Shown here piece after piece: positions 5,409 through 32,557 of a DNA stretch of 33,076 nt. Source of the stretch: a bacterium (lineage in GTDB: Bacteria; UBP15; UBA6099; JAJRTR01); assembly GCA_024278215.1 (NCBI GenBank), contig JAJRTR010000055.1, positions 1 to 33,076 of the forward strand. The letters are read 5' to 3'. Below the pieces are notes generated by a model. It did no database searches, was not told the DNA's origin, and saw only the letters and a program-made list of their open reading frames with translations. The number at the start of each line of letters is the position of its first letter. Positions within the stretch are counted from its first letter, which is position 1. A program made the translations under genes and the position numbers.

Positions 5409-5586
5409 GAGCCAATTTCAAAATTATGATTCTGCTGCGGTCGGCTGCTATTGGCCATAGCTGCGTTGTCAGTGTAAAATCGTCCTCGACGTACTCTTCA
5501 AGTACGCCTGCGAGGATTTTATACCTCCGCCTTGCTCTGAATAATTTCGCTCGACCTCGCTACGAATATAATTTTGCAATTGGCTC
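5409..5586 (+). repeat. R1 MITE-like element, copy 2 (possible 4-bp target duplication)
   Basis: Full 178-bp copy starting GAGCCAATTTC and ending GCAATTGGCTC. It is flanked on both sides by TCCT (5405-5408 and 5587-5590), the only copy with an exact candidate target-site duplication. It lies 31 bases upstream of the zf-HC2 start, so it may separate that gene from its original promoter. Confidence 0.9.
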
Positions 5587-9515: not shown

Positions 9516-9694
9516 TGAGCCAATTGCAATATTATGTTCGAGGCGAGATCGAGCGAAATTGTTCAGAGCAAGACGAAGGTGTAAAATCCTCGCAGGCATA
9601 CTTGTAGAGTATGTCGAGGACGATTTTATGCCGACAACGCAGCTTTGGACAATTGCAGCCGACCACAGCAGAATCAGAATTTTGCAACTGGCTC
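9516..9694 (-). repeat. R1 MITE-like element, copy 3 (reverse orientation; overlaps DUF89 gene end)
   Basis: Full copy of about 179 bases on the minus strand, with ends GAGCCAATTGC and CAACTGGCTC on the plus strand. Its right-hand 21 bases (9674-9694) are the last six sense codons and the stop of the DUF89 gene. Flanks TTACT and TTCAT show no target duplication. Confidence 0.9.
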
Positions 9695-27751: not shown

Positions 27752-27753
27752 TC
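27692..27753 (+). repeat. R1 element, decayed copy 6 (right half only)
   Basis: AGTATGCCTGCGGGAATTT matches the inner right hairpin arm of R1. TTTCGTTCGTCTTCGCTTCG then AACAAAATATTGCAACAGGCTC match the right end, with about 25 bases deleted between. The final C (27753) supplies the middle base of the receiver gene's TGA stop on the minus strand. Confidence 0.65.
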
Positions 27754-28183
27754 ACCAGCCTTTTCTTTTTAATATGTTGCGCACCAGTTCTTCCGATTGT
27801 TTCTGGATTATAACCATTCTATTTATCTTGGCCTCCTTGATCATCTCCAGGAGTTTCTCGATATTCACCGGTTTTTCCAGAAAATCTTTCGCGCCGAGTT
27901 TCATCGCCTCGACCCCGTTTTGCACAGTGGCGTGTCCGGTAAGCATGATGACCTGCAAATTTTCATCGAGTTGCAGCATTCTTTTCAACGTTTCAAGTCC
28001 GTCTATACCGGGCATCATCATGTCAAGCACCACAACATCGAAGTCTTCCCTTTCCACAAGTTCCAGTGCTTCCAATCCGTTCGATGCAGTTAATACTTCG
28101 ATGTCTCTCAGACACATGCGTTCTGAAAGCGCTTCAATGTAATCGCTCTCATCATCAACCAGTAATATTTTTCCTTCCGACAT
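27752..28183 (-). CDS. Single-domain response regulator (receiver 3 of the cassette)
   Basis: The protein has 143 residues: one receiver domain plus a 20-residue helical tail. Acidic pair D10-D11, phosphoacceptor D54 (VVVLDMMMPG), T82 (MLTG) and K104 (EKP) are all present, so it should accept phosphate. There is no output domain. It closely resembles the receiver of the fusion protein at 31034 (EALSERMCLRD versus ETLSERLQMRD, and LEKPVNIEKL identical), pointing to duplication. GAGGAG lies 7 bases before the ATG. It is the last gene of the five-gene minus-strand cassette, 65 bases after the phosphotransfer-like gene. Its stop codon abuts a decayed R1 repeat, so a longer C-terminus may have been lost. 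Confidence 0.92.
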   Translation of the reverse strand: MSEGKILLVDDESDYIEALSERMCLRDIEVLTASNGLEALELVEREDFDVVVLDMMMPGIDGLETLKRMLQLDENLQVIMLTGHATVQNGVEAMKLGAKDFLEKPVNIEKLLEMIKEAKINRMVIIQKQSEELVRNILKRKGW

Positions 28184-28248: not shown

Positions 28249-28929
28249 TTACGGCAAGTCAGGTATTATAAGTATAATCTCCCTGATTTTATCCTGTTCT
28301 TTTACAAGTTCGAACCGGCCGCCAAGGTATTCCATTATGACTTTCAGCAATGGAATTCTTTCCTTCACTTCGTCAGTAGCAGGGAAAGGGGCGCCGCTCC
28401 TAACAGTAATCCTGCATACGGAGTCATCTTTTTCAAGAGCAACGGTTATTGTTTCGTGTTCGCCGGCCGCCGAAACAGCGGCCTCGATGCAGATGAATAC
28501 CGAGTGTTGCAGGGAGAAGGGGTCTGTGTTCAGGCAAACAGGCACCTGCGGGAACCTGGTTTCGAGTTCGATTTCTTTGCGGGAAGCGAAGCGACGGCTA
28601 AGGACCACAAGGTTATCGAGAAGTTCTCCGAGGTCAATAACTTTAACGGGATCGTCCGCGCTGTGAGCGAAGCGGTTGAAGTGTTTAATGATGTTTTCGC
28701 CCCTGCGGGCACTTTGCATGATCTTGTTATTGATGGTTTCAATTTTGTCCGAATCCAGGGACCTGCCTTTTCGGGCCGCACACATATAATCCGACATGAG
28801 CCCTGACATCTCACCCATCATAGCAATAATATTATTTATCTCGTGCGAAAAGGAAGCTGAAATTGAGCCGAAAAAAGCCAGGCTTTTCTCTTTTAGAACC
28901 TGCTCCCTATCGTGTAGTGATTCATTCAT
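28249..28929 (-). CDS. Histidine-phosphotransfer-like protein with degenerate kinase ATPase lobe
   Basis: Encodes 226 residues, soluble. The N-terminus is a DHp dimerisation helix pair with the phosphoacceptor H29 in SASFSHEINNIIAMMGEMSG, as in NtrB-type kinases, and a second helix around IMQSARRGENIIKHFNRFA. The following lobe is placed like a HATPase domain, but the N-box Asn is replaced (ICIEAAVSAAGE), the D-x-G-x-G box reads VRSGAPFP and no G2 glycine loop exists. ATP binding is thus unlikely. Such DHp plus pseudo-ATPase proteins (compare ChpT) shuttle phosphate between receivers. Its ATG overlaps the stop of the preceding receiver gene as ATGA, so the two are translationally coupled. Confidence 0.8.
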   Translation of the reverse strand: MNESLHDREQVLKEKSLAFFGSISASFSHEINNIIAMMGEMSGLMSDYMCAARKGRSLDSDKIETINNKIMQSARRGENIIKHFNRFAHSADDPVKVIDLGELLDNLVVLSRRFASRKEIELETRFPQVPVCLNTDPFSLQHSVFICIEAAVSAAGEHETITVALEKDDSVCRITVRSGAPFPATDEVKERIPLLKVIMEYLGGRFELVKEQDKIREIILIIPDLP

Positions 28930-29297
28930 TTGCCACACCTCATGGCTTCGTGCATCTTTTGTATCAATGTGTCGATCCTGACCGGCTTGACGATGTAGTC
29001 GAACGCTCCGTGCTTCAGACTGTTTTCACAGTCTTTCGCATCGCTTAACCCGGTGAGCAGAATGATCTGTGTTTCGGGCCGCAACCGCCTGATATTCACA
29101 AGGACATCCATTCCATTCATTCCGGGCATCATTACATCCAACAGCACTATATCGTAATCTTTTTCCTTAATGCGATTCAGGGCCTGATCTCCGCTCAGAA
29201 CATATTCCACGTCTATATCCCGAAGTGCCAGCCGCTCTTCGAGCGTGGAGACCAGTTCCTCCTCGTCATCAACAAGTAAAACCCGCATCCGAGCCAT
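28926..29297 (-). CDS. Single-domain (CheY-like) response regulator (receiver 2 of the cassette)
   Basis: The protein has 123 residues, just a receiver domain. D10-D11, phosphoacceptor D54 (IVLLDVMMPG), T82 (LLTG) and K104 (VKP) are intact. There is no DNA-binding or enzymatic output, so it should act through protein contacts or phosphorelay. AGGGGGAACAC precedes the ATG. It starts 9 bases after the sensor-kinase gene ends, and its stop shares ATGA with the start of the phosphotransfer-like gene. That tight coupling on both sides suggests it is the direct partner of one or both. Confidence 0.94.
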   Translation of the reverse strand: MARMRVLLVDDEEELVSTLEERLALRDIDVEYVLSGDQALNRIKEKDYDIVLLDVMMPGMNGMDVLVNIRRLRPETQIILLTGLSDAKDCENSLKHGAFDYIVKPVRIDTLIQKMHEAMRCGK

Positions 29298-29306
29298 GTG
29301 TTCCCC

Positions 29307-31022
29307 CTAATGTTGTGCTGTTATCGGCAGTGTCAAAGTGAAGCTTGTTCCACGCTCTTTATCACTTTCAACTTCGATTTTACCCTTAAGTTTTTTAATT
29401 ATGCCATAAGTGATGGAAAGGCCAAGCCCGGTTCCTTTATTCTTGGTGGTATAGAACGGCTCGAAAATGTGATCGAGGTCATTCTCTGATATACCCGGTC
29501 CGTTATCGGAAACCACTATGGTGATACTGTCTTCTTCTCTCTGTTCGACAAGAATACCGACACGGCCACCCCTTTCCACAGCCTCCAGTGAATTATTGAG
29601 CAAGTTCAAGAACACCTGTTGAAGCTGTCCCTTGTCGCTCTTTATGGAAGGAAGATCATCCTGGAAAAAAGTTTGAATCTGGATATTTCTGAAAGACGCC
29701 TCTTTTTCCAGGAAACCCAGCACCTCTTTTATCAATAAAACCAGATCGATGGTCTGTGTACTCACGTCGAAATGTTTTGCGAACCCCAGAAGCCTGTGAG
29801 TTATCGCAGAACATCGTTCCACGGAATTGATGATGGAATCGAGAAGGGTCGAGAATTTTTCCTTATGCACAAAGTCGTCGGCTCCCGCGATTAAGTCCTG
29901 CATCAGTCCCGCTTTTTCGTTGATAATGGCAAGAGGATTGTTTATCTCGTGCGCCACGCCAGCGGCCAGGCGACCGATAGACGCCATCTTGCTCGAATAC
30001 TCGATTTTATGAAGCGCCTTGTCCTGTCTTTCGTCCGCTTCCCGGATGCGGGTCACAAGAACCGACGATATGGCCATCGTAAGCGCCACGATTACTACTA
30101 TGCTTCCAAGCAGAAAACCGATGAGCCAGTTTCTCAGGTTCAACCAGTTCCGCATCAGGTCCGGAGACCGCCTCGTTATTATGAAAATGAAAGGTGTGTT
30201 TACAATATAAGCGTAGCTTAAGATATACTCGCCACTGTCGGGGCTGTCCATCTTTACAACCCTTGTGGTCAGGACACGTTCCGGAACCGGGACAGGAGAT
30301 TTTTCGAGAACCCTCTTGCCGAACCGTGTGTTGGTCTGGAGAATCCCCTGGGTGTTTATGATGAAAGCGTCGGTGGAATCGTCCTTTTCGAATTGCGGTA
30401 TCTGCCCGGTCAGTATGTCCATGTTGATAGTTGCACGCAAAACATAGGGAACCCCTTTATAGCTTACGTGTCTTACCGCTATAACGAAATGGGGCTTTTG
30501 CCTGAAACCCAGAAACACGTCGCTGATGTATACACCATTGATTTGAACTTCATTAAACCATTTCTCGTCGGCGTAGTTGACCCCAATCAGTTTTTTACTG
30601 TAGGGACCAACATAGGAGAGGACTTCACCATTGTTGTCGATCAGGGCCAGATCGACATAGTGCTTGAAAGAATTATCAAGATGTTTTATGACGGTGTTGA
30701 GTCGCACCTCGTCGCTCAACTCTTCGACAGTTTTGTCTTCAACGATATATATCAGCGCATTTTTGCGTTCCTCGAGTGAGTATTCGAGTGCGTGTTTGGT
30801 TGTTGAGACAAAACGGTGCATGGGATACATGATTTCGTCTTTGAGGGTTCTCTGATACTGAATGTAATTTACGACGGTCATGATAAGCAAGGGGGAAATC
30901 GAAACTATTACCGTTATAAGTACGGAGGAAACCCATATACGCTTGTAGCGAGTTTTCTTAAATTTGTCGTTGGACTCGTTTCCCCAGACTACCTGCTTCA
31001 ACCTGCGTGAAAAATTTTTCAA
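29307..31022 (-). CDS. Membrane sensor histidine kinase with periplasmic Cache-like domain
   Basis: Encodes 571 residues. Membrane segment 1 (about 29-52) and segment 2 (about 294-320) flank a periplasmic region of some 240 residues. Its features (VDLALIDNNGEVLSYVGPY, WFNEV, ISDVFLGFRQKPHFVIAVR) match double-Cache ligand sensors. The cytoplasmic part has the phosphoacceptor H358 in AAGVAHEINNPLAII, the N-box LLNNSLEAVERGG, VSDNGPGI, FEPFYTTKNKGTGLGLSI and SFTLTLP, so it is a complete NtrB/ZraS-type kinase. The only start I find is a TTG at 31022, with AGGA close upstream, 11 bases after the fusion gene's stop; low or coupled translation is likely. It is the only member of the cassette predicted to bind ATP as a kinase. 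Confidence 0.93.
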   Translation of the reverse strand: MKNFSRRLKQVVWGNESNDKFKKTRYKRIWVSSVLITVIVSISPLLIMTVVNYIQYQRTLKDEIMYPMHRFVSTTKHALEYSLEERKNALIYIVEDKTVEELSDEVRLNTVIKHLDNSFKHYVDLALIDNNGEVLSYVGPYSKKLIGVNYADEKWFNEVQINGVYISDVFLGFRQKPHFVIAVRHVSYKGVPYVLRATINMDILTGQIPQFEKDDSTDAFIINTQGILQTNTRFGKRVLEKSPVPVPERVLTTRVVKMDSPDSGEYILSYAYIVNTPFIFIITRRSPDLMRNWLNLRNWLIGFLLGSIVVIVALTMAISSVLVTRIREADERQDKALHKIEYSSKMASIGRLAAGVAHEINNPLAIINEKAGLMQDLIAGADDFVHKEKFSTLLDSIINSVERCSAITHRLLGFAKHFDVSTQTIDLVLLIKEVLGFLEKEASFRNIQIQTFFQDDLPSIKSDKGQLQQVFLNLLNNSLEAVERGGRVGILVEQREEDSITIVVSDNGPGISENDLDHIFEPFYTTKNKGTGLGLSITYGIIKKLKGKIEVESDKERGTSFTLTLPITAQH

Positions 31023-31033
31023 TAGTCCTGAAA

Positions 31034-32287
31034 TTATTTCTCACCTCTCAAGTCTCCCGAAGGTTCGTTATCCTCATTCCTGTTTCGCACCTTGCTGTAG
31101 GCGGCTTTCATTATCTCGGAGAGTTTTTCAATATTCACAGGCTTTTCCAGGTAGGCGAATGCGCCCAGCTCCCCGGCAAGTTCCCTGTCTTTTTCCGTGC
31201 CATGTCCCGTCAGGATTATAACCTCGATTTCAGGATGTTCGATTTTGAGCTTACGCAACACATCAATACCATCGATGCCGGGCATGCGCAGGTCCAGCAA
31301 CATGACTTCAGGCTCGTCGGTTTCGATCATGGACAGGGCCTGCTCTCCGTTCTGTGCCATAGCAGTGCCGAAGTCTCTCATCTGCAACCGCTCGGATAAT
31401 GTCTCCACGAACTGGGCTTCGTCGTCGACAAGCAGGACTTTCTGTGGAAGTTCGAAACTCTGCCTGCGGTAGATATCTGCTTTGTGAAAGCCGGGGCCTA
31501 CCTTGCAGCTTACCGTTTCGACGCCCGCCACACGGGATGCGATATCACACAATTCCCTTTTAATGTGTTCCAGACGCAGGACACGCTTGTTTATGATTAT
31601 TGTAACATTGCCGTTTTCGCAGTCGACGTCGGTGTCGAGATGTCCCTCCAGCGCAAGTTCCACATGCACATTTGACGCAAGTACAAAATCTTCCATGGCT
31701 TTTTGCGACTCACTTGTAGTTTTTACAACATTTTTCAGCGCGTTTTCGCATATTATATCAACAGCTTCAGCTATGGACTTCTTGTGCATTGGCAGTTTGA
31801 CGTCATAGAGGCTGCTGTCCCATGGACTTTTCCCGTGCAATTCCTGCGACCAGTTCGCGGCTTCAAGATCATCTTTTCGGACAGCGCGTTCGGCTTCCTT
31901 CACGGATTTATACTTTCCACACTCCACTGCCGACGATATTCTGAAGTCGCGTGACGCTGTGATACATACCCTCAGAATATGGCTTATATTTTCTGGTGCG
32001 AGCAGAGCTGGAAAACCGGCGAATACGATGTCGTCCCGGCTAAGATATTCGGCAAGGGCCGCTTTGATGTAAATAATATTCCGTTCTTTTTCACGCGTGA
32101 ATGGATTGAAAACCGATACCGGGCCGTGCATGGTACGCATGAGTTTTTCTGTTGTAACATTGAACCGCTTCGCGGCAAGGGCCAGAACCTCCGCACTCGC
32201 AGCGTCATATCCCAGCCTGTGGGCCACCCTGTCGGCAATCTTTTCTTCATTACTGTTTGATGCACTGAAAATCGTGATAATTGACAT
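31034..32287 (-). CDS. Cytidylate-kinase-like / BON / receiver fusion protein (receiver 1 of the cassette)
   Basis: Encodes 417 residues. Residues 1-190 resemble the cytidylate-kinase-like family (RVAHRLGYDAASAEVLALAAKRF, IVFAGFPALL, HILRVCITAS), but the nucleotide loop reads FSASNSNEEK instead of a Gly-rich P-loop, so kinase activity is doubtful. Residues about 198-268 look like a BON domain (VHVELALEGHLDTDVDCENG and IASRVAGVETVSCKV). Residues 283-400 are a full receiver with D288-D289, phosphoacceptor D332 (LLDLRMPG), LTGHG and LEKP. The end is a charged tail. GAGGAG precedes the ATG by 5 bases. First gene of the cassette; R1 copy 5 lies 93 bases upstream. It may sense a nucleotide or ligand and receive phosphate from the kinase. 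Confidence 0.85.
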   Translation of the reverse strand: MSIITIFSASNSNEEKIADRVAHRLGYDAASAEVLALAAKRFNVTTEKLMRTMHGPVSVFNPFTREKERNIIYIKAALAEYLSRDDIVFAGFPALLAPENISHILRVCITASRDFRISSAVECGKYKSVKEAERAVRKDDLEAANWSQELHGKSPWDSSLYDVKLPMHKKSIAEAVDIICENALKNVVKTTSESQKAMEDFVLASNVHVELALEGHLDTDVDCENGNVTIIINKRVLRLEHIKRELCDIASRVAGVETVSCKVGPGFHKADIYRRQSFELPQKVLLVDDEAQFVETLSERLQMRDFGTAMAQNGEQALSMIETDEPEVMLLDLRMPGIDGIDVLRKLKIEHPEIEVIILTGHGTEKDRELAGELGAFAYLEKPVNIEKLSEIMKAAYSKVRNRNEDNEPSGDLRGEK

Positions 32288-32379: not shown

Positions 32380-32557
32380 GAGCCAATTGCAAAATTCTAA
32401 TTCTGCTGCGGTCGGCTGCTATTGTCCATAGCTGCGTTGTCGGCGCGAAATCGTCATCGACGTACTCTACAAGTACGCCTGCGAGGATTTCACACCTGCG
32501 CCTTGCTCTGAACAATTTCGCTCGACCTCGCTACGAACATAATTTTGCAATTGGCTC
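32380..32557 (+). repeat. R1 MITE-like element, copy 5
   Basis: Full 178-bp copy with perfect 17-bp terminal inverted repeats (GAGCCAATTGCAAAATT and its reverse complement). Flanks TATT and GTGC show no target duplication. It sits between the divergent phosphorelay cassette and the secreted-protein gene at the right edge. Confidence 0.92.

Follow-up and report, generated by a model that had tools for sequence, protein, structure and literature searches.

What does a response regulator do with a nucleotide-kinase fold from which the nucleotide loop has been replaced? This question is raised by one gene in a 33,076-nucleotide stretch of bacterial DNA (hereafter the window, meaning that whole stretch), the product of which joins a cytidylate-kinase-like (CK) domain, a BON-like domain and a receiver (REC) and is called CK-BON-REC here. 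A sequence-only reading of this DNA had suggested a nucleotide or ligand sensor regulated by phosphorylation, rather than an enzyme. For comparison, 50 fused CK-BON-REC relatives and 50 unfused CK-BON proteins were drawn from genome DNA.

Domain layout and distribution of CK-BON-REC

The gene and the features discussed first are as follows.

31034..32287, minus strand: CK-BON-REC protein, 417 aa (Pfam PF13189 and PF00072; family of 51 proteins), with the cytidylate-kinase-like domain at residues 1-185, the BON-like domain at about 188-266 and the receiver at 281-396
32240..32269, minus strand: replaced P-loop, residues 7-16, FSASNSNEEK (alignment with 50 fused and 50 unfused relatives)
31493..31726, minus strand: BON-like domain, about residues 188-265 (Pfam BON in relatives; alignment)

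The reading frame begins with ATG and has an AGGAG-like ribosome-binding site just 5' of the start. Using Pfam, residues 3-165 were assigned to PF13189 (Cytidylate_kin2; E 6.5e-22, 79 bits against a curated cut-off of 28 bits), which is also matched by all 41 fused members scanned, and residues 284-392 to PF00072 (Response_reg; E 3.7e-27); Pfam found no DNA-binding domain in the protein. The receiver residues D288/D289, D332, T360 and K382 are all in place and are kept in 50-51 of the 51 family members. The cytidylate-kinase-like N-terminus and the fully conserved receiver of the sequence-only reading are thereby borne out. The CK part is the fastest-changing domain (median identity across the family 39%, against 47% for BON and 70% for REC), and 37 of its positions are at least 80% conserved across the fused clade. 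The architecture is not a product of chance, because it is found again in 50 other loci, and a chance domain call is ruled out by the E-values together with these relatives. Isolated pseudogene decay was also considered and rejected: the reading frame is intact, the receiver is 65% conserved (median) and the loss of the loop is common to the clade. CK-BON-REC is a widespread and apparently undescribed response-regulator architecture.

The signal for the BON part is weak, and the label "BON-like" is fair where "BON" would be unproven. The earlier proposal of a BON-like domain draws its support from the relatives, as Pfam BON is recognised in 10 of 24 unfused proteins (best E 8e-13) and in one of 41 fused proteins (E 8e-4); in the window protein itself PF04972 gave no match at E<=1. 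A profile of the BON region found the BON protein OsmY as its best match in the PDB, at a non-significant E of 0.053. The single-sequence AlphaFold model of residues 1-270 shows a low-confidence a-b-b-a-b arrangement at this region (pLDDT 40, pTM 0.28) and, given that confidence, was kept out of the fold search.

A maximum-likelihood tree built from the CK-BON part separates all 51 fused proteins, the window protein among them, from the 50 unfused proteins by a branch with 100/100 support. With a CK-BON profile we recovered an orthologue in the same order as the window (G002, spread over two contigs) and others in the phylum of G030 (three genomes) and in that of G195. The phylum of G029, which from the appearance of its genes we take to be Desulfobacterota, has CK-BON proteins of all types in 88 of 395 genomes; those of G030, G195 and G262 are small, and the searches yielded few genomes there. 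The same profile had no match in viral contigs, a plasmid search found no relatives, and a scan of contigs for close relatives of the window protein returned one receiver-level relative only.

Replacement of the phosphate-binding loop

In the unfused relatives the loop follows the consensus S-R-G-[ST]-[YF]-S-x-G-[KR] (SRGSYSxGKE at residues 7-16), with S7 in 48/50, R8 in 38/50, S12 in 36/50, G14 in 43/50 and K/R15 in 28/50, while R/K108 on a strand is present in all 50. The fused clade has instead F-S-[GA]-[ST]-[FY]-C: R8 survives in 1/50, G14 in 8/50, K/R15 in 2/50 and R/K108 in none, and F7 (45/50), C12 (45/50), P98 (45/50), P166 (46/50) and C108 (42/50, in place of the strand arginine) are present. 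The window protein keeps the clade motif at its start (F-S-A-S), as well as C108, but has N11 and S12 instead of the aromatic residue and the cysteine. The claim that FSASNSNEEK replaces the P-loop therefore holds: R8, G14 and K/R15 are all absent, that is, the glycine and basic residues by which a phosphate-binding loop is recognised, and the protein is probably, as had been proposed, not an enzyme. A conserved alternative loop had been named in advance as evidence to the contrary. The conserved replacement motif of the clade answers to this in part, although it is without the basic residue and the second glycine expected to hold phosphate.

The loop loss is not private to the window gene but ancestral to the whole fused clade. 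Since the loop residues differ clade-wide between fused and unfused proteins, the P-loop must have been lost a single time, at or near the fusion, with F-S-[GA]-[ST]-[FY]-C put in its place. The two cysteines occur together in 42 fused proteins, C12 alone in three, C108 alone in none and neither in five, and they are found in none of the 50 unfused proteins; these are counts of kin sequences and hence not independent, so that the Fisher p-values are too small and were not used as probabilities. Because the proteins with neither cysteine fall on two branches of the tree, the co-occurrence may reflect a few events.

Two further Cytidylate_kin2 proteins are encoded in the genome of the window.

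Contig 206 (L013:8803-9615): CK-BON without receiver, 270 aa, loop SRGSRYKGRE
Contig 26 (L014:6995-8539): CK-BON with a transmembrane end, 514 aa, loop GRGSYSKGKE

The former adjoins two receivers, a PEP/pyruvate-binding protein and a TauE/SafE permease, and the latter adjoins TauE/SafE and PEP-binding proteins. PEP/pyruvate-binding (PPDK-like) proteins are grouped with TauE/SafE permeases, receivers and unfused CK-BON at L014:9975-14758 and L013:5171-7813. Proteins of about 515 aa with the CK-BON-transmembrane layout at L030 and L031/L067 (G099, G030) have the loop SSESKNSRRQ or SSESRTARRK, apparently another P-loop loss, in the branch of the contig 26 paralogue. Tandem pairs of unfused CK-BON genes lie beside SLC13 at L120:15614-17296, L140, L141, L143, L144 and L146; the first copy keeps SRGSYSKGKE and the second has SSDSYxKG or SADxFxxG, with R8 lost, so that here the loop has been loosened independently for a second time.

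Operon and association with SulP permeases

CK-BON-REC leads a compact group of minus-strand genes, the first four of which overlap or are separated by short gaps. The genes that follow it are listed here.

29307..31022, minus strand: sensor histidine kinase (dCache_1, HisKA, HATPase_c), 571 aa (Pfam)
28926..29297, minus strand: single-domain receiver 1, 123 aa (Pfam: Response_reg only)
28249..28938 (start perhaps 28929), minus strand: HisKA-like protein without a recognisable ATPase domain, 229 aa (alignment with 38 relatives)
27752..28183, minus strand: single-domain receiver 2, 143 aa, ending in ...ILKRKGW (Pfam Response_reg)

The usual arrangement in the relatives starts with a SulP permease and continues with CK-BON-REC, the dCache kinase, a receiver, the HisKA-like protein and another receiver, and the window has the same order after CK-BON-REC. 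Among the 36 relatives that could be assessed, a histidine kinase comes next after CK-BON-REC in 27 and the complete downstream order is kept in 24. Pfam found no DNA-binding domain in receivers 1 and 2 of the window or in ten operon receivers of relatives. The HisKA-like protein and its 38 relatives share a SHExxN box (H32 and N36 in 39/39, E33 in 38/39); Pfam HisKA is recognised in some of the relatives, down to E 3.8e-6, and Pfam HATPase in none of them. These 39 sequences, which also have invariant Asn88, His92 and Arg116, would make up a small family of phosphotransferase-like proteins that is so far undescribed.

At least 32 of the 46 assessable fused loci (strict script; 37 by eye) have a gene for a SulP permease directly upstream of CK-BON-REC, against none of the 36 unfused loci. 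The nine fused relatives in which no adjacent SulP was seen by eye include three with SLC13 instead, and unfused CK-BON genes have SLC13, TauE/SafE or PEP-binding neighbours in 17 of 36 loci. The upstream SulP is present in 32 of 41 fused loci with C12 and in none of the five without it; the window is also without both. At four loci (L109, L123, L124 and L130) the upstream permease is itself a SulP-STAS-REC fusion (Sulfate_transp, STAS and Response_reg confirmed by Pfam for L109), and in three of these four, which were compared, the SulP-fused receivers are 54-59% identical to the CK-BON-REC receiver of the window. The genome of the window itself has a solitary SulP-receiver fusion, at most 864 aa long, on contig 82 (L164:4968-7559), in which a STAS domain is likely from its length and its relatives. 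Its receiver shares 50% identity over 139 aa with receiver 2 of the window and ends in ...ILRKSGW, against ...ILKRKGW. The fusions thus resemble the CK-BON-REC receiver on the one hand and receiver 2 on the other, so that two different relay receivers have each been joined to SulP in some lineage. Of the computational evidence, these fusions speak most strongly for an action of the relay on SulP.

In the window, the approximately 790 bp upstream of CK-BON-REC, up to the contig end, contain a dispersed repeat, and tblastn found no SulP permease sequence in them, the strong matches being to the fused receiver part. As no permease gene adjoins this copy, the tie to SulP is invisible from the contig of the window. 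The repeat, ATCGACGTACTCTACAAGTACGCCTGCG, with an inner palindrome CGTACT...AGTACG, is found in the window at 32456-32483, 75-102, 5485-5512 and 9591-9618, and at about 224 sites in the genome at <=2 mismatches (23-base core; control 0), often at contig ends; it resembles a REP-type element at which the assembly breaks off. A rearrangement upstream of CK-BON-REC is plausible here, because a repeat with about 224 copies sits there.

Proposed role and known systems

Judged by its gene context, the protein is more likely the output of a phosphorelay with ties to anion permeases of the SulP type than the sensor of the earlier reading. We find it somewhat probable that the dead CK fold and the BON-like domain together form a non-DNA-binding output by which a phosphorelay adjusts SulP-type anion uptake. 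In such a relay, phosphate would pass from the dCache histidine kinase to receiver 1, then to the HisKA-only phosphotransferase and then to receiver 2 and/or the receiver of CK-BON-REC. The kinase would sense an anion outside the cell, presumably sulfate. Phosphorylation of the CK-BON-REC receiver would probably alter the contact that CK-BON may make with SulP, via the STAS domain or the attached receiver, and uptake would be adjusted after translation and not through transcription. The CK domain would take part without catalysis, to judge from its residues, although the loss of the P-loop alone is, strictly, compatible with weak nucleotide binding.

Clusters of this kind have been met before. 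For Desulfobacteraceae, gene clusters are described in which SulP and DASS transporters are accompanied by cache-domain histidine kinases and by response regulators (PMC11887813, Sci Adv 2025), with external sulfate as the suggested signal, and the SulP cluster there is likely the same as the one studied here. The link between SulP/cache-kinase clusters and sulfate uptake is therefore already known and the dead-kinase output is the addition: the word "cytidylate" is not found in the text of PMC11887813, so that this output is absent from it. These regulators are also absent from PMC5840216, on sulfate transporters. Our literature searches found no pairing of cytidylate-kinase-like proteins with response regulators, two-component systems or TauE, and a search for cytidylate kinase with the BON domain gave a paper on the lipoprotein DolP as its sole match. 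The transporters of PMC11887813, SulP included, are reported there to be constitutively formed, which fits a post-translational control; against the output role stand the WalR-type response regulators that were proposed there to bind promoters, and the absence of an adjacent SulP in the window and, by eye, in nine of 46 assessable relatives.

Other explanations share much of this evidence. The CK domain could have lost phosphoryl transfer and still bind an acceptor-side nucleotide (e.g. CMP, AMP or APS), to be read jointly with the state of the receiver, which we see as possible though on the unlikely side. Acceptor-side and core residues are conserved in both groups (in fused proteins R116 50/50, D162 50/50 and D140 43/50), a fold retained for so long usually retains some surface function, and PMC11887813 speculates on a tie between intracellular APS and sulfate uptake, though via CBS proteins; yet R108 is lost in the fused clade, where the LID-side R143 is often missing as well (17/50, compared with 36/50 in unfused proteins), and the invariant arginine and aspartate may be structural. 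A role in scaffolding or dimerisation only, in which CK-BON would oligomerise the receiver without any ligand and output would go via receiver 2 or the SulP-fused receiver, is in our opinion unlikely. It would account for the fast change of the CK domain and for the receivers, not CK, having become fused to SulP, but with 37 conserved CK positions the domain seems more constrained than mere scaffolding would require.

The cysteines suggest a redox or metal sensor, in which C12 of the loop and C108 of the strand form a thiol pair in place of the phosphate-binding serine and arginine and sense sulfide or redox state, with half of the pair lost in the window. Their co-occurrence, their absence from unfused proteins, the way in which C12 tracks the upstream SulP and the use of such a sensor to sulfide producers speak for it; as the proteins with neither cysteine lie on two branches, perhaps few events are involved, and the window itself has S12 with C108, so that we consider this decidedly unlikely. 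That the fusion to a receiver rebuilt the pocket (Ser12, Arg108) as a two-cysteine site reporting sulfide or redox to the SulP relay seems to us a little more doubtful again; if true, a dead nucleotide kinase would have been turned into a thiol sensor gating sulfate uptake. Very improbable is a surviving enzyme that would bind phosphate by FSGSFC in place of the usual loop and phosphorylate an NMP or some other small molecule: the loop is conserved in the clade and not random, but it has no basic residue or glycine pair, R108 is lost, and the window breaks even the clade motif, at N11 and S12.

Sulfate reduction begins with the entry of sulfate and, to our knowledge, the control of secondary sulfate permeases is little known. 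With a disarmed nucleotide kinase as the putative output of a relay without a DNA-binding end, the family points to control on the permease and not on its gene. It offers precise targets, namely F7, C12, C108 and the receiver Asp332, and gene pairs in which SulP lies next to or is fused with a receiver; it would be misdescribed by automatic labels such as "cytidylate kinase-like" or "WalR-type regulator".

Compared with known systems, the CK-BON-REC loci resemble the Desulfobacteraceae SulP clusters (PMC11887813) in that a SulP permease is grouped with response regulators and a cache-domain histidine kinase; they differ in that the receivers here are without DNA-binding domains and that a dead-kinase output is attached to one of them, while in the window no SulP is adjacent. 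The unfused CK-BON genes that neighbour SLC13, TauE/SafE or PEP/pyruvate-binding genes (e.g. that of contig 206, L013:8803-9615) share the layout and have a similar neighbourhood of permeases, histidine kinases and receivers, but they keep SRGSxxKG[KR] and R108, have their receivers as separate genes and have no adjacent SulP. Phosphorelays of the Spo0F-Spo0B or ChpT type use single-domain receivers and a HisKA-like protein without a working ATPase domain. The operon of the window is like them in its parts, which suggests a putative His-Asp-His-Asp relay, and unlike them it has no DNA-binding end regulator. The CK part matches, over the whole domain by HMM, the family PF13189, of which 3HDT and 3FDI are solved members (3HDT being the best sequence match of the CK-BON profile in the PDB, E 1.4e-4); the loop EREYGSGGR of 3HDT stands against FSG[ST][FY]C in the fused clade and FSASNSNEE in the window, and CK-BON-REC carries in addition the BON-like domain and the receiver.
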